Assembly: GCA_018648645.1 (NCBI GenBank)
Contig: JABGQS010000003.1
Location: 65,791-129,790 of the forward strand
Direction of reading: 5' to 3'
From: Clostridia bacterium
Lineage (GTDB): Bacteria; Bacillota; Clostridia; Christensenellales; SZUA-584
Length of the DNA: 64,000 nucleotides
Part shown: positions 38,647 to 54,348 of the stretch, piece after piece
How positions within the stretch are numbered: the first letter of the stretch is position 1
How the letters are laid out: each line of letters starts with the position of its first letter
The notes under the pieces: generated by a model
Seen by the model: the letters and a program-made list of their open reading frames with translations, nothing else
What the model was told of the DNA's origin: nothing
Database searches by the model: none
Made by a program: the position numbers and the translations under genes

Positions 38647-39087
38647 TTGAACATACTACAAATCGGAATACTAATTTTTGCAATAATCGAAGTCGGCAAC
38701 GTAATGATGCTCTACTTCATGCCCGGCTCAAGAATGGGCAACGGCGTGGGCGTTTTTAACGCGTGGGAAGCATCCAAAAAGGACGAGAATATACACGAGC
38801 TGATGAAATATCTAGTCTATTGGGTGGCGGGAGCAAAGCTGATTTTCATCATGATGGGCATCGTTGTCATCGTGTGGGGTGACATTTGGGTGCAATTGTT
38901 TACAGTGGTCGCTTTGATAATATCGATCGCTTCGTTCTTCTGGCGACTGTTCCCGATGATACGAAGACTCGACAAAAAAGGCGAAATCACGCCAAAGGGC
39001 TACAACAAAACGCTGGCGCTAATGATTGCGGCATTCATAATCGGCTTTCTTGCCGTATTGATTGTAGCTCTTATTCAATACTTCTAG
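38647..39087 (+). CDS. Small multi-pass membrane protein
   Basis: 146 residues with TTG start (GTGAGGAA site 6-10 nt upstream). Four hydrophobic helices: residues 3-25, 60-78, 81-99 and 121-145; the loop after helix 1 holds PGSRMGNGVGVFNAWEASK. No catalytic motif recognised. Transport or sensing role not known. Confidence 0.6.
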   Translation: MNILQIGILIFAIIEVGNVMMLYFMPGSRMGNGVGVFNAWEASKKDENIHELMKYLVYWVAGAKLIFIMMGIVVIVWGDIWVQLFTVVALIISIASFFWRLFPMIRRLDKKGEITPKGYNKTLALMIAAFIIGFLAVLIVALIQYF

Positions 39088-39160
39088 CAGCAACGCACAA
39101 AACAGCAGCAGAATAAATCAAATCGCGTTTTTACGCAGAAGAGCTTTATAGGAGGCAGAT

Positions 39161-39313
39161 ATGGACCAATACGTTTGCAGAGAATGCGGTTATACATTTT
39201 CCGCAGAAAACGTGGAGCCGGACTACGACGAGTTGATCGAAACGGACGAGCCTATGCAAGAGCCCGCTTGCCCTACATGCGGCGGCAAAGCCGATGCCAA
39301 GCAAGACGAGTAA
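39161..39313 (+). CDS. 50-residue zinc-ribbon/rubredoxin-like protein
   Basis: ATG at 39161 with AGGAGG at 39150-39155; TAA at 39311-39313. Two CxxC pairs: YVCRECGYTF (Cys6, Cys9) and PACPTCGGK (Cys37, Cys40), separated by an acidic loop. It could bind zinc or, less likely, iron as a short rubredoxin. Partner unknown. Confidence 0.7.
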   Translation: MDQYVCRECGYTFSAENVEPDYDELIETDEPMQEPACPTCGGKADAKQDE

Positions 39314-39481
39314 GCCAAAGTGCTTTAGCAGCAAGCCTTTGTTGAGGTTTTTTCAGCAATGCAGAAACCTGCGTATTCAACGCAGCGCGGTATACTTGTC
39401 GCAAAAGACTTGTTTGCATTTTGAGTTCAAACCGAACGATTTGTATAAAAACCAGCTTTTACGAGGTTCTTGCTGTTTTGC

Positions 39482-39510
39482 TTGAAAATCGACTGTGCAT
39501 ATGCTAAAAT
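39482..39510 (+). promoter_or_regulatory. Promoter of the NRPS operon
   Basis: TTGAAA (39482-39487), 17-nt spacer, TAAAAT (39505-39510). It is the best sigma-A match in the gap before the synthetase. Confidence 0.65.
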
Positions 39511-39812
39511 ATATGTAATTGTGGGATAGAATGCTGATTGGAAGAAAAGCAATGCTGACCGGCAGATTTTTGGGACTATAAAATTTCAATCGCGAATAAA
39601 GCAGCTCACAATAAAAGAAGCATTGCATTGGTTTTATATTTGGAGGAACGGAAGACGAGACCGCACACGTGCCACACGGTATAAGATGCAGGTCAAGCGC
39701 CTTACTTCAACAGGGGGGAGTGTTAATATATCACTTCTTTATACGTTTTTGGTTTGCAAAATGCAGCCAACAGCGTCAATGCGAATCCTAACTAAATAGA
39801 AGGTTGTACTTT
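39511..39812 (+). other. About 300-nt untranslated leader of the NRPS operon
   Basis: No gene with a usable start was found. It contains an isolated strong G-run (GGGGGG near 39713-39718) without a nearby start codon and a short hairpin around CACGTG (arms ACCG 39660-39663, CGGT 39677-39680). No riboswitch class was recognised. The region 39314-39481, before the promoter, shows nothing clear. Confidence 0.4.
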
Positions 39813-42800
39813 ATGAAAGAGCAAAAGCTTCGCTATGCCCTGACACAGCCGCAACAACGCGTGTGGCTTTCAGAAAAGCTGTATCCGGGCACAGGCATGT
39901 GGAACAACGCGGGTACCCTTAAAATCAAAGGGGAATTAAACTACGCGTTGCTTGCTCGCGCAATGAATATATTTTTGCAGGAAAACGAATCAATCCGCCT
40001 GCGGATAGGCGTCGATGATAACACGCCATATCAATATATCAGCGAATACGAACCATACAAGATTGACGTGCTCGATTTCTCAGACCGCGGCATAGATAAG
40101 CTGTACGAGTGGGACAGCATGCAGTCGCAGGCACCCATGCCGCTGATTGAAAGCGACTTGTTTTACTTTGCGCATGTGAAACTTGGCGACAACGAGGGCG
40201 GATATTTCGCTAAGTTCCACCACTTGATATCTGACGCGCTTTCTATTGTAGAGTTTGGCAACCAGACGATGAGCAACTACGAAAGGCTGCTCGCCGGTCA
40301 GGAACTCACACCAACACCTACTCGCTCGTACATCGAATATATCCATTCAGAGAAGGATTATTTCGAATCAAAAAGGTTCGCGATGGACCACAAGTATTGG
40401 ACGAACAAGTTTGAGGAGCTTCCCGAGCCCACAGTGGTCAAGCAAAAAAAGACCAACTATTTTAGCGTCAAGGCAGAACGTAAAGTCAACGTAATCGAGC
40501 AAGACCTATCTCTGAAAATCCGCGAATACTGCGTAGGAAACGGCATATCAGCGTTCTCGCTTTTCTTGTCGGCGCTTGCAATTTACATAAACCGAATTTC
40601 GGGAAAAGACGACATTATAATCGGCGCACCTGTAGCAAACCGCTCATCCAAAAACGCAAAAGGCTCTTTTGGCATGTTCGTCAGCACGGTGCCCATTCGC
40701 ATAAAAGTCCAAGAAGACCTCACTTTCACCGACTTTGCTAAAGTTGTATCGGGCATCTGGTTCGGTGCTCTAAAGCATCAAAAGTACCCCTACAACATGC
40801 TGATGCAAAGTTTGCGGGAGAAACACAAGAATCTCGAATCGCTGTTTGACGTCACCCTCTCATACCAAATCGGCACGTTCCAAAAGGATAGCGAAAAGTG
40901 TGAATACGAAGGACGCTGGCACTTTAGCGGATACCAAGCGAACTCGCTTAATATCCACCTTAACGACCGCGAAGCCGACGGCAGGGTAATCGTAGACTAC
41001 GACCATCACGCGCCGTTCTTTTCGGGCAAGGAGATGGAGTATTTCCACGCTCACTTAATCAACATCATACGGGACGTTATTGCGAGCCCGGACAAAAAAC
41101 TATATATGTTGGAGCTATTAGCCGACGAGGAACGCGACCGCGTACTCAACCGTTTTAACGCTACAGAGCACGACTTCCCACAGGGCGAAACGCTGGTTGA
41201 GATGTGGCAAAGTCGGATGCGCGTCACACCAAAAGAGAGTACAGCGATTGTTTTCAAAGGCAAATCGATGTCGTACGGCGAACTTGACGCGCGCTCAACA
41301 GCACTTGCGCTTTACTTAAGAAAAAAAGGTATCGGCGCAAACGACATTGTCGGGCTGCTGATGCCGCGCTGTACCGACCATTTCGTGTGCATGCTGGCTG
41401 TGCTAAAAGCCGGGGCTGCGTTTCTGCCTATAGATTCCGAGCTTCCGAATGAGCGTATCGCATACATGCTCAGCGACAGCGGAGCAGTAGCCGCACTGGT
41501 ATCACCCGATTTGATTGCCAAGTGCGAAAGCGTGCCGGAGCTGCTCATTATCAAGACGACGATACCGCTTGCGCTTCCGGACGATCCGTACGTTATGCCG
41601 ATTTGCAAACCAAACGACTTAGCATACGTCATCTACACATCCGGTTCAACAGGGCAGCCGAAAGGCGTACAGATAGAGCACCACTCAATCGTACACTTCA
41701 TGTATATGATGCAGGAGATATGGGACTATTCGCCGGGCGCACGTGTGCTTTGCGCCGCCTCGTTCTGCTTCGATATGAGCATTATGGAAGCGCTTCCGCC
41801 GCTCGTCAGCGGAGCCGTTCTGGTGCTGGCGGCAGAGCACGAAGCAAACATACCTCGCAACATGGTGCGTCTCATACAAAACTCGCTGGTCAACATAATG
41901 ATGGTGACACCGGGGCGAATGGAGCTGCTTTTGTCAGATACGCACGGTGCTGCCAGCCTAAAAGATTTTAGAGACATCGGAATGGGCGGCGATGTATTGC
42001 CGGAGAAGCTGCTTTCGGACGTTCAGCAATGCACGGGCGCACGCATTACAAACTTCTACGGTCCGACCGAGATCACCGTCTGCGCAACCTGTACCGATGT
42101 CACGAACGCAAAGGTACCCAACATCGGCAGCCCTATGCGCAACGTGAAAGCGTACATTTTGGACGCGCATCAAAATCCTGTGCCAATCGGCGTTCCGGGA
42201 GAACTGTACGTCGGCGGCAAAGGCGTTGCACGGGGCTACATCAACAAACTGGAACTCAACGAAGAGCGCTTTATTGACAACCCATTCGCAGCCGGAGAAA
42301 AACTATACCGCACAGGCGACTTGACTCGGTGGTACCCGCTTGGCGAGATCGAATTTCTCGGGCGAATAGACAAACAAGTAAAAATTCGCGGCTATCGTAT
42401 CGAGCTCGCAGAAATCGAAAACCGTCTCGTACAAGTGCCGGGCATTACGTCCTGTACAGTTGCCGACTACGCCGACTCGAGCGGACGCAAGTTCCTTGCA
42501 GCATACGTATGCGGGCAGCCTCCAAAGGTGGCCGACATCAAAGCACATTTGGTCAAAGAGCTGCCAAACTATATGATTCCGTCTTATTTCATGACGATAG
42601 ACAGTCTGCCTTTCAGCCCAAGCGGCAAGGTAGACAAAACGCGGCTGCCCGACCCTCTCGAAGGTATCGAAGCGCGAAGAGACGATTTTTCGCCGCCGCA
42701 AACACCGACAGAAACCGCTTTGGCACAAGTTTGGCAAAACGTGCTCGGTATCGAGCAAATCGACCGCAACGACAGCTTTTTCGACATCGGCGGAGACTCG

Positions 42801-45800
42801 CTGTCAATTGTAATGGTCATGTCGCAGATTCCTCAGCAGTTCCACGTAGAGCTTGCTCTCGAAGACGTGTATTTGCAGCCCCAGCTAAAAGAAGTCGCGG
42901 CGCTAATCGACGCGGCAGAGCTGTGCTCACATCAGCCTATCGTATCGGCACCAAAGCAGGATGATTACCCCGTGTCCTCTGCCCAGCAGCGCATGTGGAT
43001 AATCGAGCAGGCAGCTGGCGGAAACGCAGCGTACAACATCCCGATGGCTTTCAAGCTGCGCGGCAAAGTTAACTTGCCGCGTTTGAGAGCCGCATTCGAA
43101 GCGCTGATTTTGCGCCACGATTCACTAAGAACATCATATGTGTTGCGCGGGGGAGAGCTTCGGCAGCAAATCGCCGACAGCGTTGACTTGCCGCTTGTGC
43201 GTGCTGAATGCAAACACAGAGAGCTCGATGAGCAGCTCAAGTCACAAATCAAACCATTCGACATGCAAACAGCGCCGTTGATGCGCGCTGCATTAATCAA
43301 GACCGAAAAAGAAACGATATTTTTTATAGACATTCATCACAGTATTGCCGACGGCCGAAGTGCGAAAATACTGATTGACGACTTGGTAGCGCTGTACGAT
43401 GACGAAATACTACCGAGCCCGCTGTTCGAGTACAAAGACTACGCCGTATGGCAGCGCTCATACATGAAATCAGAAAGCATTGCCCTTCAGTGCGAATATT
43501 GGCAAAGCACATTAAACGGAGAGCTTCCGCTGCTTAACCTGCACACAGACCGACCGCGCGCATCCACACAGCAATTTTCCGGCGCCCGGCTTTCATTCAA
43601 CATACCAAAGCAAACGGCAGACAAGCTGCGCGATTTTGCAAAGCAGCACGGCGCAACACTGTTCATGAGCATACTTGCCGTATATAACATACTGCTTGCT
43701 AAGTACACCGGGCAGGAAGACATTATCGTAGGCACGCCTGTGTCCGGGCGAGGCCGACAAGAAGTGCAGGACATCGTGGGTGTGTTTATCAACACGCTGC
43801 CGCTTCGCAATCGTCCGCTTGCAGACCTCAGCTTCTTGCAGTTTTTCAACCAGCTGACCAAAAACAGTATATCGGCGTTTGCGCATTCCGACTATCCGCT
43901 CGAGCGCATGATAAGCGATATTTCACTGGCAAGGGACGCAAGCCGAAATCCGCTTTTCGACACTATGCTGGTACACTCGGCACAGCCGCAAGATTTTTCT
44001 CTCGGTAATGCAACATGCAGCCACTATCCGTTCGACCCGGACATAGCCAAGCTTGACCTAACGCTCGAAGTATACGAGAGCGACGAGGGGCTGGAGTGTC
44101 AGTTCGAATACAACACCATGCTGTGGAACGAGCCGACAATTCGGCGCATCAGCAGGCATCTATCGCGCCTTTTTGATACATTGCCGGACGAGCCGGACAC
44201 AAGAATCAAAGACGTTGCGATGTTGTCACAAAACGAAATTTGGCAGGTGACGCAGGGCTTTAACAAAACGGACAAGCCGCTGGCCGACATCAGCGTTCAA
44301 TCGCTACTCGAAGACCTCGCTGTTTCTGCTCCGGATAAAACAGCGCTCATTTGTGACGGGCAAAGCATGACCTTTGCGCAGCTTAACAACCGCGCTAACC
44401 AAGTTGCACATCAATTGCGAGAAAGCGGTGTAACGAGAAATTCTGTCGTGGCGTTGTGCCTGCCGCGCTCGCTTGACCTTATGATCGGGCTTCTTGCCGT
44501 GCTAAAAGCCGGCGGCGGATATTTGCCGATAGATCCAAGCTACCCGGAGGATCGCATCGCTTATATGCTTTTCGACAGCGGCGCTGCAATGATTATTAAA
44601 GAGCCGGACACCGACGTCGGTTTTTCCGGCAGGAGAATTCACCTAAAAGATATAGATGCAGACGGCATCTCGACCAATTTACCGAGAATCGACCATATGG
44701 AAGACGCGGCGTATATCATTTATACTTCGGGATCCACCGGCAAACCCAAAGGATGCACGCTCCCGCGGCGCGGTTTGCTAAACCTGTTTGCCGACACAAA
44801 ATCGACGATAGCTTATCAGCCGGAGGAGATCAGCGTATCGGTCACAACGGTCGCGTTTGACATCTTCATCGGCGACGCCGTGCTTCCGCTGCTTAACGGA
44901 TGCACCGTTGTTCTCAGCACAGAGGAGGAGCTGCGGCAGCCGCACTTGCTTGCAGATTTGATAGAGAGAACGCAAGCGACATTCATACAAACAACGCCGA
45001 CGCGCATGCGCATCATGATGAACGACGAAAGTTTCAGAGCGGCGGCGGGCAAACACATTACAAAAATCGTTCTCGGTGGAGAAATGATACCAATCTCGCT
45101 GCTTTCTCAGCTGCAAACCGAAATAGGCGCACAGATCATAAACGGATACGGACCTACCGAAGCGACGGTCTACAGCTCGTTCAAAGACTTGACGAGCTCC
45201 TCTTTCGTTACCATCGGGCGTCCCGTAGAGAACACCCGCATGTACATACTCAACAAGAACAAGCGTCCTGTGCCGGTTGGCGTGCTTGGCGAGCTATATA
45301 TCAGCGGCGCAGGTGTCGCTGACGGGTACATCAATCGCGACGAGCTCACAAAACACAGCTTTTCACCCGACCCGTACTGGCCGGGGCACATGATGTATAG
45401 AACGGGCGATGTTTGCGCGTTTATGCAGGACGGCGACGTCGAAATCTGCGGCCGCGTTGACCACCAAGTTAAAATCCGCGGTTTGCGCATAGAGCTTGGC
45501 GAAATCGAAGCGGCAATGCGCAGCGTTGACGGCATCGAAGAAGCTGTGGTCAAAGATTGGGGAGAAGACGTTAAAAAGTACTTGTGCGCTTACTACTCTG
45601 TCAGCAAGCATGTGGACGAAAAGGTACTGCGCGGCATACTTTCAGACGCGCTTCCTTCATACATGATCCCTTCGTTCTTCATCTTGATGGACGAAGTACC
45701 CACAACGCTAAACGGCAAGGTGGACAGAAAAGCTCTCTTGGAGCCGGATCGCAAAGAGCTTAGCAAACGCGCTTCGATTGAAGGCGTGCAAATGAGCGGG

Positions 45801-47207
45801 CAAGAGCGAAGAATGAGCAAAGTTTGGGCAGATATACTCGGTATCAGCGGCATTGGCCCGGACGACAACTTCTTTGAGCTTGGCGGAGACTCGCTTGCAG
45901 TAATCAACGTGCAGGCAGCGCTGGTTCAATATGGTTGGTCGGTCAGCACCAAGGACTTCTACGAAGCACAGACGCTGCGTGGCGTGTGTAGCTGCGTGAA
46001 TGCAGACCAAGAGCACGAGCCGGACAAAACGATCGAAAGCAAACTCGACATATCAGTACCGCCGTATGCGCACCTTTCACCGATACGGGCAGAGAAAGTA
46101 CTGCTGACGGGCGCAACAGGGTTCCTCGGCGCTCATATCCTCGCAAAAATGTTGAAAAAGAAGCGCACTCACGTTATTTGCTTAGTGCGCGGCAAAGACG
46201 AGCAAGACGCTTCGGCACGCTTGCGAGAGCAGCTGACATTTTACTTTGGCACACAGAGCAGCTCAGAGATTATGAAAAAAGTCAGCGTGCTTTGCGCAGA
46301 CATTTCAAAAGACAACCTCGGTCTTGATGAAGCGTCATATGCAGCGCTCAAAAAGGTAGACACGATTATCCACAGCGCGGCGATTACCGACCACGTCGGG
46401 CAAGAGGACGAGTTCGAAAAAGCAAACGTAGATGGAACACGCAACATCACATCGCTGGCAGGGCTTGCTAACGCGGCGCTGGTGCACATCTCCACAACGG
46501 GAGTATCCGGCACTCAATTTACACTGGACAAGCGCAAACACGGAGAGTTTGACGAAAGCAGCTTCTACATCGGGCAAAACTACGCAGACAATGTGTACAT
46601 AAACAGCAAGTTCAGAGCAGAAGAAATCGTACTCGAAGCTATAGAACTTGGGCTAAACGCTCGCATTATGCGCGTGGGGATGCTGACCGCGACGCTTGGC
46701 GGACGGTTCCAGAAAAATCCGGAACGCAACGCCTTCGCAAACCGAATTGCTGCTCTTTGCGCAATTGCATGCGTACCTGTCGGTATGCTTGGTGCAAACA
46801 TAGAAATGACCCCTGTCGATTCGTGCGCGCAAGCGATTTTGGCGCTGACCCACAACCAAAGCCCGCGACAGGCGATTCATCACGTGTTTAACACAAACAC
46901 TATGTCACTTACTGTGCTTATATCACTGCTCGAGCAAAACGGTAACCGCATAGAGATTATCTCGGACACAGCATTTATGGAAAAAATGACGCAACTAAGC
47001 CGACAAGGCGACTTCACACACGTTAGCAGCCTGGTGGACGACTTAAGCAATTATAACAGCGCGCCGCAAATTGTGATTACAGCATCCACTACCACGCAAC
47101 TATTATCGGGTGCAGGCTTTAGCTGGCCGGTTATTGACGCGGCATACATGGGCGGTTTTTTGCAAAGCATTACCGCTAATCCAAAACAAGGAGATAAAGA
47201 AGCATGA
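39813..47207 (+). CDS. Dimodular nonribosomal peptide synthetase, C-A-T-C-A-T-R
   Basis: 2464 residues from the ATG at 39813 (AGAAGG 9 nt upstream; the in-frame TTG at 39804 is inside that spacing). Domain order by motif: condensation 1 (HHLISD, His136-His137-Asp141); adenylation 1 (about 455-950; YTSGSTGQPKG, NFYGPTE, SGKVDK); carrier 1 (GGDSLS, Ser996); condensation 2 (HHSIADG, His1175-His1176-Asp1180); adenylation 2 (about 1485-1975; YTSGSTGKPKG, GYGPTEATVY); carrier 2 (GGDSLA, Ser2027); terminal thioester reductase (GATGFLG near 2099, catalytic Tyr2262-x3-Lys2266). The N-terminal C domain suggests an N-acylated start; the reductase releases an aldehyde or alcohol. All core residues look intact. 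No phosphopantetheinyl transferase, MbtH or exporter is nearby. Its stop overlaps the kinase start by 4 nt. Confidence 0.95.
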   Translation: MKEQKLRYALTQPQQRVWLSEKLYPGTGMWNNAGTLKIKGELNYALLARAMNIFLQENESIRLRIGVDDNTPYQYISEYEPYKIDVLDFSDRGIDKLYEWDSMQSQAPMPLIESDLFYFAHVKLGDNEGGYFAKFHHLISDALSIVEFGNQTMSNYERLLAGQELTPTPTRSYIEYIHSEKDYFESKRFAMDHKYWTNKFEELPEPTVVKQKKTNYFSVKAERKVNVIEQDLSLKIREYCVGNGISAFSLFLSALAIYINRISGKDDIIIGAPVANRSSKNAKGSFGMFVSTVPIRIKVQEDLTFTDFAKVVSGIWFGALKHQKYPYNMLMQSLREKHKNLESLFDVTLSYQIGTFQKDSEKCEYEGRWHFSGYQANSLNIHLNDREADGRVIVDYDHHAPFFSGKEMEYFHAHLINIIRDVIASPDKKLYMLELLADEERDRVLNRFNATEHDFPQGETLVEMWQSRMRVTPKESTAIVFKGKSMSYGELDARSTALALYLRKKGIGANDIVGLLMPRCTDHFVCMLAVLKAGAAFLPIDSELPNERIAYMLSDSGAVAALVSPDLIAKCESVPELLIIKTTIPLALPDDPYVMPICKPNDLAYVIYTSGSTGQPKGVQIEHHSIVHFMYMMQEIWDYSPGARVLCAASFCFDMSIMEALPPLVSGAVLVLAAEHEANIPRNMVRLIQNSLVNIMMVTPGRMELLLSDTHGAASLKDFRDIGMGGDVLPEKLLSDVQQCTGARITNFYGPTEITVCATCTDVTNAKVPNIGSPMRNVKAYILDAHQNPVPIGVPGELYVGGKGVARGYINKLELNEERFIDNPFAAGEKLYRTGDLTRWYPLGEIEFLGRIDKQVKIRGYRIELAEIENRLVQVPGITSCTVADYADSSGRKFLAAYVCGQPPKVADIKAHLVKELPNYMIPSYFMTIDSLPFSPSGKVDKTRLPDPLEGIEARRDDFSPPQTPTETALAQVWQNVLGIEQIDRNDSFFDIGGDSLSIVMVMSQIPQQFHVELALEDVYLQPQLKEVAALIDAAELCSHQPIVSAPKQDDYPVSSAQQRMWIIEQAAGGNAAYNIPMAFKLRGKVNLPRLRAAFEALILRHDSLRTSYVLRGGELRQQIADSVDLPLVRAECKHRELDEQLKSQIKPFDMQTAPLMRAALIKTEKETIFFIDIHHSIADGRSAKILIDDLVALYDDEILPSPLFEYKDYAVWQRSYMKSESIALQCEYWQSTLNGELPLLNLHTDRPRASTQQFSGARLSFNIPKQTADKLRDFAKQHGATLFMSILAVYNILLAKYTGQEDIIVGTPVSGRGRQEVQDIVGVFINTLPLRNRPLADLSFLQFFNQLTKNSISAFAHSDYPLERMISDISLARDASRNPLFDTMLVHSAQPQDFSLGNATCSHYPFDPDIAKLDLTLEVYESDEGLECQFEYNTMLWNEPTIRRISRHLSRLFDTLPDEPDTRIKDVAMLSQNEIWQVTQGFNKTDKPLADISVQSLLEDLAVSAPDKTALICDGQSMTFAQLNNRANQVAHQLRESGVTRNSVVALCLPRSLDLMIGLLAVLKAGGGYLPIDPSYPEDRIAYMLFDSGAAMIIKEPDTDVGFSGRRIHLKDIDADGISTNLPRIDHMEDAAYIIYTSGSTGKPKGCTLPRRGLLNLFADTKSTIAYQPEEISVSVTTVAFDIFIGDAVLPLLNGCTVVLSTEEELRQPHLLADLIERTQATFIQTTPTRMRIMMNDESFRAAAGKHITKIVLGGEMIPISLLSQLQTEIGAQIINGYGPTEATVYSSFKDLTSSSFVTIGRPVENTRMYILNKNKRPVPVGVLGELYISGAGVADGYINRDELTKHSFSPDPYWPGHMMYRTGDVCAFMQDGDVEICGRVDHQVKIRGLRIELGEIEAAMRSVDGIEEAVVKDWGEDVKKYLCAYYSVSKHVDEKVLRGILSDALPSYMIPSFFILMDEVPTTLNGKVDRKALLEPDRKELSKRASIEGVQMSGQERRMSKVWADILGISGIGPDDNFFELGGDSLAVINVQAALVQYGWSVSTKDFYEAQTLRGVCSCVNADQEHEPDKTIESKLDISVPPYAHLSPIRAEKVLLTGATGFLGAHILAKMLKKKRTHVICLVRGKDEQDASARLREQLTFYFGTQSSSEIMKKVSVLCADISKDNLGLDEASYAALKKVDTIIHSAAITDHVGQEDEFEKANVDGTRNITSLAGLANAALVHISTTGVSGTQFTLDKRKHGEFDESSFYIGQNYADNVYINSKFRAEEIVLEAIELGLNARIMRVGMLTATLGGRFQKNPERNAFANRIAALCAIACVPVGMLGANIEMTPVDSCAQAILALTHNQSPRQAIHHVFNTNTMSLTVLISLLEQNGNRIEIISDTAFMEKMTQLSRQGDFTHVSSLVDDLSNYNSAPQIVITASTTTQLLSGAGFSWPVIDAAYMGGFLQSITANPKQGDKEA

Positions 47208-49066
47208 GTTTTTCAATTCAATTCTATATCACATGTGGAACAATAGTGATGCTTGTATTGATGGGCATATACATTGCAATGGCCAAAAAAAAGAAGATTT
47301 TGCACTTCATCTTTTTGCTGATCATAATAGAGATTTTCATTTGGAACGGTGCGGCAATAATGCGCGGGGCCTTTGGAAGCAACCTAGCCAACTTCATCAT
47401 TTGGGAAAACATCACTTACATCGGCGCGGCAGCTGTTCCCGTCTCTCTCATATTTTTGGGCATCGCTTACGCTCAATCGGACAAGGGGCTTAGAAAGCGT
47501 CATTTGCTGCTTCTAATCATTCCTGTAGTCACGCAAATCATCGTTTGGACGAACGGCAGCCACAACTTATTCTACGGCGAGTTCGTCATGGTAAACGGCG
47601 CTTACGCGCCTGCGTCTCTCGGTATCTACGCATACGTGCACCTCGCATACTCGTACGTTTGCATGATTATCGGTCTTGGATACATGAGTTACTTTGCCAT
47701 CAAAAACTCGGCTGTGTGGTCGGCTCAGGCGACACTCATTATTATAGGGAGCGTGATTCCGTTGGCGACCAACGTAATCTATACTCTAAACGCGCTCGGA
47801 ATAGTGAATTACGCGTGGATTGATGGCTATTCTACGCCGATTGCGTTCACCTTTACGCTCGGGCTCTATCTGTTAGGCATGTTCCGATTCAACCTGCTGC
47901 GCATTACACCGGTTGCGCTTCAAACGGTCATCAACCGTATTTCGGACAGTTTTATTGTTGTCGACACCGAGATGAATATTATCGACTACAATAAAACATT
48001 CGAAGACAACTTTCATTACATAACAAACTTGCAAAAAGGCGAGAATTTCTATAAACTATTACTGAGTCTAGACAACGCTGACATGGGTGCCGAGCAGTTC
48101 AAAGACATCGTAACCAGCGCAGCTGAGGCGAACGACACACTAATCAAAGACATCGATATCGAAATGGATGGGAAGAAGCAGTTTTTCACCATCGAGTTCA
48201 CTCCGATATCACAGCGAGGCAGAAATACAGCGGTTATATTGCTCTACAAGAACGTAACACAGCAAATGAACGACATGCAGCAAATTCAAGACAACCAGTC
48301 GATTTTGCTCGAGCGGGAGCGCCTTGCTTCTCTGGGGCAGCTGATAGGCGGCATTGCGCACAACTTAAAGACGCCGATTATGTCTGTCGCGGGCGGCATC
48401 GACCAGATTAAGTATTTAAGTGAAGAGTATGTCACCTCGCTCGATGACGCAGAAGTAACCAAGGATGACCATAAAGAGATTGCGGGAGAGATGCAAGACT
48501 GGCTGACAAAGATGAAAGTGCATATGGGATATATGTCAGACATCATCACTACGGTTAAGGACCAAGCGGCCAAGTTTACAAACCCCGAGCATGAATGGTT
48601 CACATTGGACGAAGCGTTCAAACGAGTCAATATACTGATGCAGCACGAAATCACGGCAAACAAATGTCGCTACACAGAAGACGTACAGGCAGACCGCAGC
48701 CTTCGTATTGAAGGTGACATCAACAGCATGGTACAGATTATGGACAACATCATCGTAAACGCGATACAATCATACGGCAAAAAGGGCGGCGAGATTGCAA
48801 TACGAGTCACACGCAAGGAGAACAACTTGCTTATCGTAATCAGCGATTTTGGCAAGGGCATCAAGGATGACGTAAAAGAGCGGCTGTTCAAAGAAATGGT
48901 CACTACAAAAGGTAAGATGGGAACCGGCCTCGGGCTGTACATGTCGTACAGCACGATCAAAGGTATGTTCCGCGGAGAAATGTGGGTCGAATCCAGCGTG
49001 GGCGTGGGTACAGACTTCTATATACAATTGCCTATACACGAAGACATGGTATCGGAGGTAGAATAA
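47204..49066 (+). CDS. 7TM/PAS sensor histidine kinase coupled to the NRPS
   Basis: 620 residues. About seven hydrophobic helices in the first 230 residues (N-terminal 7TM histidine-kinase type), a PAS-like domain (SDSFIVVDTEMNIIDYNKTF, from about 247), then HisKA with His386 in IGGIAHNLKTPIMS, and HATPase_c with N-box IMDNIIVNAIQSY, G1 SDFGKGI and G2 GTGLGLYMS. The H-box has AHNLKTP instead of the common SHEIRTP, as in some NtrB/Ato-type kinases. AAGGAG lies 10 nt upstream of the ATG; 4-nt overlap with the NRPS stop. It probably phosphorylates the HD-GYP regulator that starts 1 nt after its stop. Ligand unknown; the NRPS product is a logical candidate. Confidence 0.93.
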   Translation: MSFSIQFYITCGTIVMLVLMGIYIAMAKKKKILHFIFLLIIIEIFIWNGAAIMRGAFGSNLANFIIWENITYIGAAAVPVSLIFLGIAYAQSDKGLRKRHLLLLIIPVVTQIIVWTNGSHNLFYGEFVMVNGAYAPASLGIYAYVHLAYSYVCMIIGLGYMSYFAIKNSAVWSAQATLIIIGSVIPLATNVIYTLNALGIVNYAWIDGYSTPIAFTFTLGLYLLGMFRFNLLRITPVALQTVINRISDSFIVVDTEMNIIDYNKTFEDNFHYITNLQKGENFYKLLLSLDNADMGAEQFKDIVTSAAEANDTLIKDIDIEMDGKKQFFTIEFTPISQRGRNTAVILLYKNVTQQMNDMQQIQDNQSILLERERLASLGQLIGGIAHNLKTPIMSVAGGIDQIKYLSEEYVTSLDDAEVTKDDHKEIAGEMQDWLTKMKVHMGYMSDIITTVKDQAAKFTNPEHEWFTLDEAFKRVNILMQHEITANKCRYTEDVQADRSLRIEGDINSMVQIMDNIIVNAIQSYGKKGGEIAIRVTRKENNLLIVISDFGKGIKDDVKERLFKEMVTTKGKMGTGLGLYMSYSTIKGMFRGEMWVESSVGVGTDFYIQLPIHEDMVSEVE

Positions 49067-49067
49067 G

Positions 49068-50588
49068 ATGCGTAAGAATCGGCGAGAATTGTCAGATGAG
49101 TTTAGAATCATCGCAATAGACGACGAACAGGGGATACTCGACAGTATTGAGGCCTTGCTGAACCGAAACGGCTATATGTGCGAAGGGTTTACTAACCCGC
49201 TTGAAGGTCTGGAGGATATACGCAAGAACCATTACGACCTTCTGGTCCTGGATTATTTCATGCAGCCGATTCATGGTGAAGAGGTCGTCGAAGAGATCCG
49301 CAAATTTAACAAAGAACTCTACATTCTGCTGCTGACTGGGCACAAAGACTTAGCGCCGCCAATCAGCACAATTAAATCGCTCGATATTCAAGCATACTGC
49401 GAGAAGAGCGACCGGCTTGACCAGCTTCAACTCTTGATCGAATCGGGCATAAAATCGATATCACAAATGCGCACAATACAGCAGTTCCGCGACGGTCTGC
49501 AAAGCATACTGGGCTCGGTGCCAAAAATCTACCAGCTTCAGCCGATTGGCAGCATACTTGAAGAGATTCTCATTCAGCTTTTGCCGATGGTGAACAGCGA
49601 AGATGCTTTTATTCTAGTCGACGACATTCCAAGCATAGAGCAGTCAAACGGTCAGACAGAGCATAAAAGTATTTACAAAGGTATCGGCAAATACAAAGTT
49701 GAGATTGAAGAGTTTACCGAGCTGCTAGACCCAGAGCTTATGGCTGCAATAGGACAAGCGCGTACCGATATGACGGTGATAAAGCGCCCAGACGGCATCA
49801 TTTTCCCACTCGGTGACGAAACAAACTCTGCAATAGGCGCAATATATGTAAACAGCATTGACGCAGACGAAGGGACAAAACTGCTGGAGATCTACGCAGC
49901 TCAGGTTGCTTCTTCAATTAGCAATGCTTTTCTACATTCGCTGGTCAACACCAAAAACGAAGAGCTCAACAGCACTTACGCACAACTGAAAGTGCGATAT
50001 ATGGACACCATTGAGGTGCTCAGGTTGGCTGTTGATGCCAAGGACGAATACACACAAGGGCACAGCGACCGCGTTGCATACTATGCAAGCAAAATCGGCG
50101 AGTCATTTGCGCTGGGCGATGAGGACCGCGAGAAACTGCGTATCGCGGGCGTGTTCCACGACATCGGCAAAATCGGCACAGCAGACGATATTCTGCTAAA
50201 GAATCAGAAACTGGAGAAAGCAGAGTACGAGCAAATCAAGCGGCATCCTATCAAAGGCGCGATGATACTTTCCGCCGTATCCATGTTCCAAGACATCGTG
50301 CCAATCGTTCGTCACCATCACGAGCATTACGACGGCAAGGGTTACCCCGACGGCATAAAGGGCGAGAAAATAGAGTTTTTCGCACGGATTATATCGGTAG
50401 CGGACGCTTTTGACGCCATGATGAGCGACCGGCACTACCGTCGCAGACTCTCATTACTCGAATCAAAATGGCAGCTTACTCAAGGCGCAGGCACACAGTT
50501 TGACGCAGAGGTTGTCGGACGTTTTATGAACGTGCTGGACACCGATCAAGAGCTTCGAGAGCGTCTGGAGCTAAACGAAGGCGAGTAG
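49068..50588 (+). CDS. Response regulator with HD-GYP phosphodiesterase domain
   Basis: 506 residues. Receiver domain 10-130: acidic pair Asp18-Asp19, phospho-acceptor Asp62 in LLVLDYFM, Thr in LLLTGH, Lys in CEKSDR. A middle region (about 150-300) looks GAF-like. HD-GYP domain from about 310: FHDIGKIG (HD pair near 364), then HHHEHYDGKGYPDGIKG with the GYP signature, and ADAFDAMMSDRHYR. HD-GYP proteins hydrolyse cyclic-di-GMP; all visible metal-binding residues are present. It has no DNA-binding domain, so output is enzymatic. Last gene of the NRPS operon. Confidence 0.93.
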   Translation: MRKNRRELSDEFRIIAIDDEQGILDSIEALLNRNGYMCEGFTNPLEGLEDIRKNHYDLLVLDYFMQPIHGEEVVEEIRKFNKELYILLLTGHKDLAPPISTIKSLDIQAYCEKSDRLDQLQLLIESGIKSISQMRTIQQFRDGLQSILGSVPKIYQLQPIGSILEEILIQLLPMVNSEDAFILVDDIPSIEQSNGQTEHKSIYKGIGKYKVEIEEFTELLDPELMAAIGQARTDMTVIKRPDGIIFPLGDETNSAIGAIYVNSIDADEGTKLLEIYAAQVASSISNAFLHSLVNTKNEELNSTYAQLKVRYMDTIEVLRLAVDAKDEYTQGHSDRVAYYASKIGESFALGDEDREKLRIAGVFHDIGKIGTADDILLKNQKLEKAEYEQIKRHPIKGAMILSAVSMFQDIVPIVRHHHEHYDGKGYPDGIKGEKIEFFARIISVADAFDAMMSDRHYRRRLSLLESKWQLTQGAGTQFDAEVVGRFMNVLDTDQELRERLELNEGE

Positions 50589-50604
50589 CACACTTATGCA
50601 AGCG

Positions 50605-50637
50605 AAAGCTCGGTGCAGCGATGTATCGGGCTTTTTT
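50605..50637 (+). terminator. Terminator of the NRPS operon
   Basis: AAAGCTCG (50605-50612) pairs with CGGGCTTT (50627-50634) with one G-T pair, followed by TTT. Confidence 0.75.
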
Positions 50638-50690: not shown

Positions 50691-52073
50691 ATGATTAGCA
50701 AAGCATACGTTATGCCCCATCCGCCACTTATAGTGCCGCAAGTAGGCAGAGGGCAGGAGAAGAAAATACAGAAAACCATCGACGCGTTTGACGAAGCGGC
50801 TAAACGGATTGTGCGCGAGGCTCCGCAGACGGTGGTAATTATCACACCGCACAGCGTGATGTATGGCGACTATATCCACATCTCGCCCGGCATCGGTGCA
50901 AGCGGAAGCTTTGGCTGCTTTGGTGCAAAGGACGTCAGCATTTATAAAGACTACGACACCGACTTTTCGAGCGAGCTCGCCATATGTGCTGGCGAAGCAG
51001 ACATTAATGCCGGCATGATGGGAGAGCGGGACGCGACGCTCGATCACGCAACGCTGGTACCGCTGTACTTCATAAATAAATACACGCAAGACTACCGCAT
51101 CGTGCGCATCAGCGTCTCGGGGCTCAGCTACAGGGCGCACTACGAGCTCGGCAAATGCATCGCTCAATCCGCACAAAACCTTAACCGAAAAACGGTGGTA
51201 GTTGCAAGCGGCGACTTGTCGCACAAGCTGACCGAAGACGGTCCGTACGGTTACGCCGAGCAAGGCCCTGCTTTTGATGCGCAATTAACCGACGCGCTGA
51301 AGCAAGCCGACTTTTTAAAGCTGATGAGCTTCGACGAGTCTTTCTGCGAAGCGGCAGCAGAATGCGGACTGCGCAGCTTTGTAATGATGGCGGGCGCTCT
51401 CGACGGCAAATCGCTCGACACAGACTTCATGTCATACGAAGGACCGTTCGGCGTGGGTTACGCCGTTTGCGAATATTCGGTGTCGGGTGACGACGAGAAC
51501 CGTCGCTTTGGCAAGCAATACGCAGCGCAGCAAACACAAAAAATTGCAAGTATTCAAGGCGACGAGGACGAGTTTGTGAAGCTCGCGCGCCTCTCGCTCG
51601 AAACATACGTAAAAACGCGCGAATATGTCGATGTACCGAAAGGACTCGCACCCGAATTGACACATCGCAAAGCAGGCGTGTTCGTGTCGCTTAAAATGCA
51701 CGGGCGTCTGCGCGGTTGCATCGGCACGACATCTCCCGCTAAGGATTCCATTGCGCAGGAGATTATCGCCAACGCTGTCAGCTCGGGCACGGGCGACCCG
51801 CGGTTCGACCCTGTCAGCGCGGACGAGCTTGCTGATTTAGTCTACAGCGTGGATGTTCTCGGCGAAGCTGAGCCAATCAGCTCGATGGACGAGCTTGACG
51901 AAAAGCGCTACGGCGTTATCGTCAAAAAAGGTTTTCGCAGCGGTTTGTTGCTGCCAAACCTCGATGGTGTGGATACGCCGGACGAGCAGGTGAAAATCGC
52001 GCTGCAAAAAGCAGGCATCGACGCACGGTCAAAATACGAGATGCAGCGCTTCGAGGTGGTGCGTCACAAATGA
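50691..52073 (+). CDS. AmmeMemoRadiSam system protein: MEMO1-like (B) fused to AMMECR1 (A)
   Basis: 460 residues from the ATG at 50691 (AAAGGAAGTGAT upstream). Residues 1-260 are the MEMO1/LigB extradiol-dioxygenase-like fold: YVMPHPPLIVP, ITPHSVMYGDY, SGDLSHKLTEDGPYGY, with the conserved His residues. Residues 285-460 are AMMECR1: AGVFVSLKMHGRLRGCIGT and DPRFDPVSADEL. In many genomes these are separate genes or this same fusion, next to a radical SAM enzyme, as here (4-nt overlap). The reaction of the system is not known to me. Confidence 0.9.
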   Translation: MISKAYVMPHPPLIVPQVGRGQEKKIQKTIDAFDEAAKRIVREAPQTVVIITPHSVMYGDYIHISPGIGASGSFGCFGAKDVSIYKDYDTDFSSELAICAGEADINAGMMGERDATLDHATLVPLYFINKYTQDYRIVRISVSGLSYRAHYELGKCIAQSAQNLNRKTVVVASGDLSHKLTEDGPYGYAEQGPAFDAQLTDALKQADFLKLMSFDESFCEAAAECGLRSFVMMAGALDGKSLDTDFMSYEGPFGVGYAVCEYSVSGDDENRRFGKQYAAQQTQKIASIQGDEDEFVKLARLSLETYVKTREYVDVPKGLAPELTHRKAGVFVSLKMHGRLRGCIGTTSPAKDSIAQEIIANAVSSGTGDPRFDPVSADELADLVYSVDVLGEAEPISSMDELDEKRYGVIVKKGFRSGLLLPNLDGVDTPDEQVKIALQKAGIDARSKYEMQRFEVVRHK

Positions 52074-52897
52074 GCACAGTAACCTGCGAAATATGCCCGC
52101 ACAGCTGCAAGCTGAAAATCGGGCAGACGGGGCTGTGCCGTGCACGCAGCAACATTGACGGTAGCATAATTGCTGACAACTACGGGCGAATTACAGCAAT
52201 GGCGCTTGACCCAATCGAGAAAAAGCCGCTTCGGCGCTTCCATCCCGGCAGCTATATCCTCTCGGTGGGCAGCTTTGGCTGCAACCTAACGTGCAGCTTC
52301 TGCCAAAACCACCACATCTCAATGAGCGATTTCCACGCAAAGACGGTGTTAGTATCCCCCGAGGAGCTTGTCCGAAGGTCTGCGGCGGCGCAGAAGGACG
52401 GCAACATCGGCATCGCCTTTACGTACAACGAACCGCTGGTAGGCTACGAGTACGTGCGAGACTGCGCAATTGTCGCTAAGCAGTTCGGTCAGAAAATCGT
52501 GCTGGTCACCAATGGCTACATCAACGTAGCGCCGCTTTTGGCGCTGCTTCCATATGTGCACGCCATGAACATCGACCTAAAAGCGTTCAATGACGATTTC
52601 TATAAAACCATCGGCGGCGACCTGCAAACGGTCAAACGAACAATAGCGCTGTCCGCAGCCGCCTGTCACGTCGAGGTCACAACACTAATTATCCCGGGCG
52701 AAAACGACAGCGAGCAGCAGATGCGCGATATGGCGGCTTGGCTTGCCGATATCGACCCGCAGATTCCGCTGCACGTTGCGCGCTTTTTCCCGCAGTACAA
52801 CATGACCGACCGTCCGCCAACCAATTTGAAATCATTATTCAAACTGGCGGCTATCGCCCGAGAGCATTTGCAATACGTATATGAAGGCAATTGTTGA
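52070..52897 (+). CDS. amrS: AmmeMemoRadiSam system radical SAM enzyme
   Basis: 275 residues. N-terminal Cys cluster CEICPHSCKL...GLCRAR, then the radical SAM CxxxCxxC as CNLTCSFCQNH (near residue 70), GNIGIAFTYNEPLVGYEYV and NIDLKAFNDDFYK. This pattern is the PflA-like AmrS family. Coupled to the MEMO-AMMECR1 fusion by ATGA. Expected to generate a 5'-deoxyadenosyl radical with a [4Fe-4S] cluster; substrate not established. Confidence 0.92.
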   Translation: MSTVTCEICPHSCKLKIGQTGLCRARSNIDGSIIADNYGRITAMALDPIEKKPLRRFHPGSYILSVGSFGCNLTCSFCQNHHISMSDFHAKTVLVSPEELVRRSAAAQKDGNIGIAFTYNEPLVGYEYVRDCAIVAKQFGQKIVLVTNGYINVAPLLALLPYVHAMNIDLKAFNDDFYKTIGGDLQTVKRTIALSAAACHVEVTTLIIPGENDSEQQMRDMAAWLADIDPQIPLHVARFFPQYNMTDRPPTNLKSLFKLAAIAREHLQYVYEGNC

Positions 52898-53103: not shown

Positions 53104-54348
53104 GTGGATATACTAAAGAAGTGCTATGAATATACAGAGGTGGAAGAGTCAAAGAAAACAGGGCTATACCCTTATTTTCACGCGTTACAAACCGCGCAGG
53201 ACACAGAAGTAATGATGGACGGAAAACGCATCATAATGATAGGTTCAAACAACTATATGGGACTGACCAACGACCCGCGCACCGCGCAAGCCGCTAAAGA
53301 CGCAATCGACAAATACGGCACAGGCTGCAGCGGATCGCGTTTCCTCAACGGCACGCTCGAGCTTCACGAGCAGCTTGAAGCCGCGCTTGCAGACTTCTTT
53401 CATAAAGAGAATGCACTGACTTTCAGCACAGGGTTCCAAAGCAACCTAGGCATAATCAGCTCGCTTGTAGGGCGGCGCGACTATATATTTAACGACGGAG
53501 AAAACCACGCAAGCATCGTGGACGCATGCAGACTCAGCTTCGCAAAAAAAATGCTTCGGTTCGAGCACAACGACATGGACGCGCTTGAAGCCAAGTTAGC
53601 TAGAATTCCCGAAGACGCGGGCAAACTGATTATCACGGACGGCGTGTTCAGCATGAGCGGCGACATCGCAAAGCTGCCCGAGCTCGTGGAACTTGCGAAG
53701 AAGTATGATGCTACTCTCATGGTAGACGACGCGCACGGCGTTGGTATGATTGGCAAGAACGGCAGAGGCACGGCATCGCACTTTGGTCTCGAGGACGAAG
53801 TTGACATCATAATGACCACGTTCAGCAAATCGCTTGCGTCGCTGGGCGGCTGCATGGCAGCAGACGAAGCGGTCATCAACTACGTCAAGCACAAATCGCG
53901 CCCGTTCATATTCAGCGCGTCAATACCGCCGGGCAACGCGGCCGCGGCAATGGAAGCGCTAAAGATCATGCTGGCAGAGCCGCAGCGCCAAGAGGACTTA
54001 ATCGAAATCAGCAACTACATGCGCGCAAAGCTTAAAGAAGCGGGCATCCCGATTATTGAGGGGACCACAGCGATAATTCCTGTGTTCACATACGACATGA
54101 CCCGCACCTTCCTCATCACAAAGATGCTGTTCGACGCGGGCGTATACGTCAACCCGGTCATTCCGCCGGCTGTCAAAAACGGCGAGTGTATGCTGCGGAC
54201 AAGCTATACCGCGACGCACACACAAGAGCAGATGGACACGGCTGTAGAAGCTTTCAAATACGTGTTTGGCAATGTCGATGATGTGATGGCGCAAATGGCA
54301 GCGCAGGTGGAAGAGCTAAACAGGCTTCAAACACAAAGGAATGGCTGA
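53104..54348 (+). CDS. PLP-dependent alpha-oxoamine synthase, serine palmitoyltransferase-like
   Basis: 414 residues with GTG start (TAGGAG site upstream). Condenses an amino acid with an acyl-CoA and releases CO2. Key residues: GSNNYMGLTNDPR, GTGCSGSRFLNGTLELHEQLE, the PLP-stacking His in ENHASIVD, DDAHGVGMIG, and Schiff-base Lys in TTFSKSLASLGG. The N-terminal extension with YPYFHALQTAQD and the GCSGSRFLNGTL block are closer to bacterial serine palmitoyltransferase as I recall it than to BioF or Kbl. No bio or tdh genes are near. An SPT-like role (sphingolipid or related lipid) is likely but not proven. Confidence 0.8.
   Translation: MDILKKCYEYTEVEESKKTGLYPYFHALQTAQDTEVMMDGKRIIMIGSNNYMGLTNDPRTAQAAKDAIDKYGTGCSGSRFLNGTLELHEQLEAALADFFHKENALTFSTGFQSNLGIISSLVGRRDYIFNDGENHASIVDACRLSFAKKMLRFEHNDMDALEAKLARIPEDAGKLIITDGVFSMSGDIAKLPELVELAKKYDATLMVDDAHGVGMIGKNGRGTASHFGLEDEVDIIMTTFSKSLASLGGCMAADEAVINYVKHKSRPFIFSASIPPGNAAAAMEALKIMLAEPQRQEDLIEISNYMRAKLKEAGIPIIEGTTAIIPVFTYDMTRTFLITKMLFDAGVYVNPVIPPAVKNGECMLRTSYTATHTQEQMDTAVEAFKYVFGNVDDVMAQMAAQVEELNRLQTQRNG

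Follow-up and report, generated by a model that had tools for sequence, protein, structure and literature searches.

A conserved NRPS, 7TM histidine kinase, and HD-GYP regulator cassette as a candidate chemical-signalling system in Bacillota and Eggerthellales

In Xanthomonas, the rpfF-rpfC-rpfG genes of the diffusible signal factor (DSF) system together encode a synthase, a membrane histidine kinase, and a regulator with receiver (REC) and HD-GYP domains, through which a lipophilic signal alters c-di-GMP. The CqsA-CqsS and LqsA-LqsS systems also encode an autoinducer synthase beside a multi-transmembrane histidine kinase. Among small non-ribosomal peptide synthetases (NRPSs), AusA is not known to have a starter condensation (C) domain. 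An NRPS cluster of Clostridium yields N-octanoyl-Met-Phe-H, and acyl-dipeptide aldehydes from gut Clostridia inhibit proteases, with effects on host cells (PMC8518294). No role of these compounds for the producing bacterium is given in the open-access accounts searched. The locus described here, in which an NRPS, a kinase with a seven-transmembrane (7TM) sensor, and an HD-GYP regulator are encoded side by side, lies in a 64,000-nucleotide stretch of a Clostridia genome (contig JABGQS010000003.1), hereafter the window.

Organization of the operon and its proteins

The three genes follow one another on the + strand: the NRPS gene (39813..47207; 2464 aa; ATG at 39813, TGA at 47205-47207), the histidine kinase gene (47204..49066; 620 aa; ATG at 47204), and the response regulator gene (49068..50588; 506 aa; ATG at 49068). 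All three were delimited by ORF calls and assigned with Pfam, supplemented by NCBIfam and motifs for the NRPS, an AF2 model for the kinase, and motifs for the regulator. The junctions measure -4 nt (an ATGA overlap) between NRPS and kinase and +1 nt between kinase and regulator, in agreement with a sequence-only reading of this DNA that had described the 4-nt overlap and the regulator start 1 nt past the kinase stop. That reading had also placed a terminator 3' of the regulator, where a strong intrinsic one, a 14-pair hairpin with a U-run, is found at ~50604..50637 (+; MFE -22.5 kcal/mol, z -3.6), and had correctly noted that the three-gene unit includes neither an exporter nor a phosphopantetheinyl transferase (PPTase). 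Shine-Dalgarno-type sites precede the NRPS (AGAAGG), the kinase (AAGGAG), and the regulator (GGAGG), and a promoter-like site lies ~300 nt before the NRPS start (39482..39510, +; TTGAAA-17-TAAAAT with TG before the second hexamer, by consensus match only). The + strand carries no promoter- or terminator-like match at either junction, and thus no credible promoter or terminator, the feature that the earlier reading had named as telling against coupling, separates synthetase from kinase there. Within the whole unit, promoter-like matches (17 versus 12.1 in shuffles, sd 2.9) and terminator-like matches (18 versus 14.7, sd 4.5) are not clearly above background. Judged by this layout, with its own Shine-Dalgarno site for each gene and a single terminator, the unit is one operon. 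AmmeMemoRadiSam genes (50691-52897; proteins A and B fused, and a radical SAM enzyme) lie directly after the terminator, and a relative of the first of them adjoins the regulator in one related locus (L014); 2.5 kb past the regulator, 53104-54348 encodes an enzyme of the BioF/Kbl/serine-palmitoyltransferase family that scores below all curated cut-offs.

The NRPS has the domain order C-A-T-C-A-T-R (Pfam: Condensation, AMP-binding, and PP-binding, each twice, and NAD_binding_4), with intact HHxxxD (twice), GGDS (twice), and TGxxGFxG motifs. Since the first C domain (39834..41153, +; Pfam; HHLISD) precedes the first A domain, the architecture implies a starter, acylating role for it. The A/T modules are followed by a C-terminal NAD(P)-binding reductase (R) domain (46098..47183, +, limits approximate; NAD_binding_4, 1.8e-47; TGATGFLG), as in peptide-aldehyde NRPSs. 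This architecture and the Clostridium cluster for N-octanoyl-Met-Phe-H (PMC8518294) suggest that the product is probably a small acylated peptide aldehyde, namely an N-acyl-dipeptide aldehyde. The best NCBIfam match, aureusimine synthetase (NF047350), reaches 1503.8 bits, below its cut-off of 2500. The only PPTase found in the 95%-complete assembly is an AcpS-type protein of 130 aa (L170, G000:C34), and no dedicated Sfp-type enzyme was seen there; the NRPS may rely on AcpS, or be inactive, or the PPTase gene may be missing from the assembly. An Rfam search of the NRPS leader (39000-39900) at thresholds up to E 1 found nothing, and hence no known riboswitch, of the c-di-GMP class or any other.

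The kinase consists of a 7TM region, a PAS domain, an H-box, and HATPase_c (HisKA_7TM, 2.7e-36; PAS_4; HATPase_c, 1.2e-19), and its HNLKTP (H-box), DFGKG, and GTGLGL motifs are intact. In its AF2 model (mean pLDDT 79), seven helices stand ahead of the PAS domain, helices 4 and 5 being separated by a beta hairpin (residues 124-139); a Foldseek search with this model hit known histidine kinases in their kinase and PAS regions and offered no clue to a ligand of the 7TM region. In the regulator, REC, DUF3369, and HD-GYP domains follow one another (Response_reg, 1.6e-15; DUF3369, 1.5e-28; HD_5, 8.5e-35), and the domain scan bears out the earlier statement that it has no DNA-binding domain. The receiver residues D18, D19, D62, T90, and K113 are intact, and the HD pair (HDIGK) and HHEHYDGKGYP, which fits the HHExxDGxGYP signature of HD-GYP phosphodiesterases, are present; the protein is predicted to be a c-di-GMP phosphodiesterase.

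Conservation and variation of the gene neighbourhood

Among 151 genomes of the same order, the kinase occurs in six other carriers, all of which hold NRPS, kinase, and regulator in the order of the window, although one copy (in G004) is split over two contig ends. Among 391 genomes of the class, 49 have the kinase at E 1e-80 or better. Loci found by kinase and by regulator sequence were pooled, scored with one profile, and cleared of duplicates, giving 99 kinases, of which the 60 distinct ones at >=500 bits (at least 500) form the nearest set. An NRPS lies directly upstream in 52 of these 60; the remaining eight are preceded by a stand-alone protein with PilZ and GNAT-like parts (three), a contig end (four), or the cassette's own regulator (one, an additional kinase next to a complete cassette in L116). 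Most NRPS-kinase gaps in this set run from -11 to +50 nt, the more negative ones being partly an artefact of mechanically chosen start codons, and the regulator comes next in most. The regulator alignment recovered relatives where a first contig scan by kinase alone had confirmed none. Loci picked by regulator sequence alone show NRPS domains in 54 of 78 cases by strict tblastn; blastp adds two further loci with an NRPS (L098, L100), and another two hold only the PilZ-GNAT protein. In a phylum-level sample outside the 60-kinase tally, an NRPS C-terminal domain directly precedes nine of the ten kinases uncut by a contig end, two of these (L179, L181) resting on weak R matches; for the tenth (L182), ~340 bases of upstream sequence are covered and a C domain lies downstream. 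Seen from the NRPS side, this kinase adjoins 20 of the 46 R-domain matches in the 391 class genomes by coordinates, and seven of the 26 without one come from a single genus.

The cassette ranges over several classes and two phyla, including Clostridia, Erysipelotrichia, and Eggerthellales, with carriers such as Paraeggerthella hongkongensis and another Eggerthellales genome (Actinomycetota), Holdemania filiformis, Faecalicatena contorta, Faecalicatena orotica, and Clostridium lacusfryxellense; in all, the set occurs side by side in dozens of bacteria, from the gut and the environment, that are only distant relatives of one another. The Eggerthellales loci (L092, L123, L091) carry the whole cassette, and the 65-68% identity of their regulators to that of the window, in another phylum, suggests horizontal movement of the cassette between phyla. 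The three-gene order, whose poor conservation the sequence-only reading had listed as a possible objection, is thus strongly kept, and the consistent neighbour of the kinase is this regulator family and not a different one. Mapped on the kinase tree, an adjacent NRPS requires ~7 changes and shows mild clustering only, because it is a feature of nearly all rows. That the genes adjoin by chance and share no common pathway is a view in favour of which nothing was found, and it is refuted by the neighbourhood counts, in which the genes stay adjacent where kinase identity is down to 31-63%, in different classes and in two phyla, and in samples picked by kinase, regulator, and R domain; we regard its probability as negligible.

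Around this core, much varies. The NRPSs of relatives have one or two modules and end in an R domain, a thioesterase, or a dehydrogenase-like domain with weak similarity to PigE reductase (1e-11 to 1e-12; L033, L059, L060, L061, L062, also L172 and L174), which, by motif, presumably also resembles cyanobacterial acyl-ACP reductase and is a possible alternative means of reductive release. All three NRPS types, as well as the PilZ-GNAT protein, are candidate makers of acylated amino compounds. Some regulators (~350 aa) have no DUF3369, some NRPS-linked kinases carry HAMP-type or unrecognised N-termini in place of the 7TM sensor, and some NRPS-kinase pairs have no adjoining regulator (L059, L060, L062, L063, L077). 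In Sinanaerobacter chloroacetimidivorans (L130), the order is kinase, regulator, NRPS. A PPTase gene stands beside the unit in seven relatives (L014, L016, L017, L114, L117, L118, L124), as does an acyl-CoA ligase gene in two (L014, L117). 7TM kinases that match the same profile more distantly, in class genomes (L075-L080, L082, L088), are accompanied by a regulator of 203-208 aa, REC-HTH in the two scanned, and by no NRPS. The constant core is a small-molecule synthase and this kinase, usually with the HD-GYP regulator, side by side.

The neighbourhood tallies show no gene for an exporter, a protease, or resistance that regularly accompanies the cassette. This speaks against the idea of a protease inhibitor or other weapon that is secreted, and sensed by kinase and regulator only for self-protection (immunity or stress), as does the HD-GYP output, which to our knowledge is not an immunity module. 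Such a function would fit the protease inhibition by acyl-dipeptide aldehydes (PMC8518294), and on the whole we consider it quite improbable.

Links to c-di-GMP and the proposed circuit

Several relatives tie the cassette to c-di-GMP by more than the HD-GYP domain. One NRPS (L072) is extended at its N-terminus by ~550 residues in which PilZ is matched (6.4e-07), and this extension also stands ahead of the NRPS in L112 (5.6e-06) and L108 (1.8e-04, just below the Pfam cut-off). The fusion thus occurs in three genomes (L116 overlaps L108 on one contig), for example in Clostridium lacusfryxellense, and the NRPS of the window has no PilZ domain. We know of no earlier case of a biosynthetic enzyme placed under second-messenger control in this way. 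The stand-alone protein found in the NRPS position (543 aa; L068:4179-5807 (-), L069:3147-4775, L070:3854-5482) is 28-30% identical over its length to the NRPS-fused region and, by sequence, does not match PilZ in Pfam. In its model (mean pLDDT 66, moderate), the N-terminal half resembles MrkH, MotI, and YcgR (Foldseek E 3e-12), and the C-terminal half matches tandem GNAT acyltransferases; from model and Foldseek, the protein is therefore predicted to be a c-di-GMP receptor of PilZ type linked to an acyltransferase half that resembles tandem GNAT enzymes. Directly after one regulator (L019:6057-7604) lies a gene for a HisKA_7TM-PAS-GGDEF protein, which would place the same type of sensor on a diguanylate cyclase with an effect opposite to that of the HD-GYP regulator, and another locus (L104) also holds a GGDEF protein. 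The connection with c-di-GMP is made stronger by the PilZ-NRPS fusions and by the 7TM-GGDEF gene that adjoins one copy of the cassette. The genome of the window has six GGDEF matches, which imply a c-di-GMP pool for the regulator to act on, and its sole PilZ match, on a cellulose-synthase-like glycosyltransferase, makes exopolysaccharide the likeliest target there.

From the gene order, domains, motifs, folds, and conservation, all directly seen, we infer product class, kinase ligand, phosphotransfer, and c-di-GMP hydrolysis as steps of a possible circuit. The first C domain would attach a fatty acyl chain, two amino acids would be joined, and the R domain would free an N-acyl-dipeptide aldehyde; this lipophilic product would be the ligand of the 7TM kinase, which would phosphorylate the neighbouring receiver; phosphorylation would switch the HD-GYP domain and change cellular c-di-GMP, with output through c-di-GMP effectors, here most likely on exopolysaccharide. 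In some lineages, PilZ built into the NRPS could feed c-di-GMP back on synthesis. By analogy with rpfF-rpfC-rpfG, an autoinducer is the simplest reading, and the -4 and +1 nt junctions, the conserved NRPS-kinase-regulator linkage, and its replication in the phylum sample support it. It is weakened by the swapped sensors of some NRPS-linked kinases, although such swaps are expected if signals differ, by the NRPS-kinase pairs without a regulator, by a genome in which AcpS is the only PPTase found, and by a leader in which no known riboswitch was found. In a mirror-tree test, kinase and REC divergence correlate strongly (rho 0.84). Corrected for kinase and HD-GYP, the last A domain correlates with the sensor at 0.24 (3 of 1000 permutations as high), the first A domain at 0.15 (70 of 1000), and the first C domain at -0.07; this co-divergence, weak and limited to the last A domain, is suggestive at most of product sensing.

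The same observations bear on another arrangement, in which the kinase senses some other cue (envelope state, a lipid of a neighbour or host, or membrane damage) and c-di-GMP controls the synthesis or use of the NRPS product, so that the cassette is a dedicated switch and not an autoinducer loop. Pathway-specific regulators are common in biosynthetic clusters; PilZ fused to an NRPS suggests that c-di-GMP acts on the synthetase, which this arrangement explains at least as well as the circuit does; and the persistence of NRPS linkage while sensor domains are swapped favours it. However, the fusion was seen in three genomes only and the NRPS of the window does not share it, no DNA-binding domain is present in the regulator, no c-di-GMP riboswitch was found ahead of the NRPS, and adjacent genes for a synthase, a membrane kinase, and a regulator are the usual layout of autoinducer systems. 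We give such a switch a substantial but minority chance. That the operon is instead a self-contained cassette of signal synthase, sensor, and second-messenger enzyme, its product sensed by the kinase, we hold to be somewhat more probable than not.

Relation to described systems

The encoding of a REC-HD-GYP regulator with a kinase is shared with Rpf/DSF, here with DUF3369 between the two domains of the regulator. Unlike in that system, the synthase position is filled by an NRPS and not by the enoyl-CoA-hydratase-like (crotonase-fold) RpfF, the kinase is of 7TM-PAS type without the receiver or Hpt domain of RpfC (only HisKA_7TM, PAS_4, and HATPase_c were found), and the hosts are Bacillota and Eggerthellales. 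Since the RpfF synthase and the hybrid features of RpfC are absent, the cassette resembles Rpf/DSF in logic but is not a member. The CqsA and LqsA systems differ in that their synthase is a PLP-dependent acyltransferase and not an NRPS, and in having no HD-GYP regulator. The synthetase itself is like the gut dipeptide-aldehyde NRPSs (BGC0001686, ruminopeptin) and AusA, likewise small enzymes that release peptide aldehydes through a terminal reductase, whereas no linked histidine kinase is mentioned in the open-access accounts of these enzymes that were searched. The PilZ receptors MrkH, MotI/DgrA, and YcgR have the fold predicted for the N-terminal half of the PilZ-GNAT proteins, whether these stand alone or are fused to an NRPS, but here a tandem-GNAT-like half follows, with a complete NRPS after it in three genomes.

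In the open-access literature searched, no earlier account of this gene set came to light. The kinase and HD-GYP regulator genes that accompany synthetases of this kind raise the hypothesis that acyl-dipeptide aldehydes are self-signals that set c-di-GMP, and the one-module, thioesterase, and reductase-variant synthetases in the same cassette point to a family of related signals. Our broader proposal, put forward tentatively and with chances a little short of even, is an undescribed signalling class of anaerobic Bacillota and Eggerthellales, in which NRPS-made N-acyl amino or peptide aldehyde autoinducers would act through a 7TM kinase and an HD-GYP regulator on c-di-GMP, in some cases with a receptor-in-synthetase loop. 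The cassette is found in culturable gut species. Compared with the systems above, its parts are known, and the combination of NRPS, 7TM kinase, and HD-GYP regulator looks like an undescribed chemical-signalling system.
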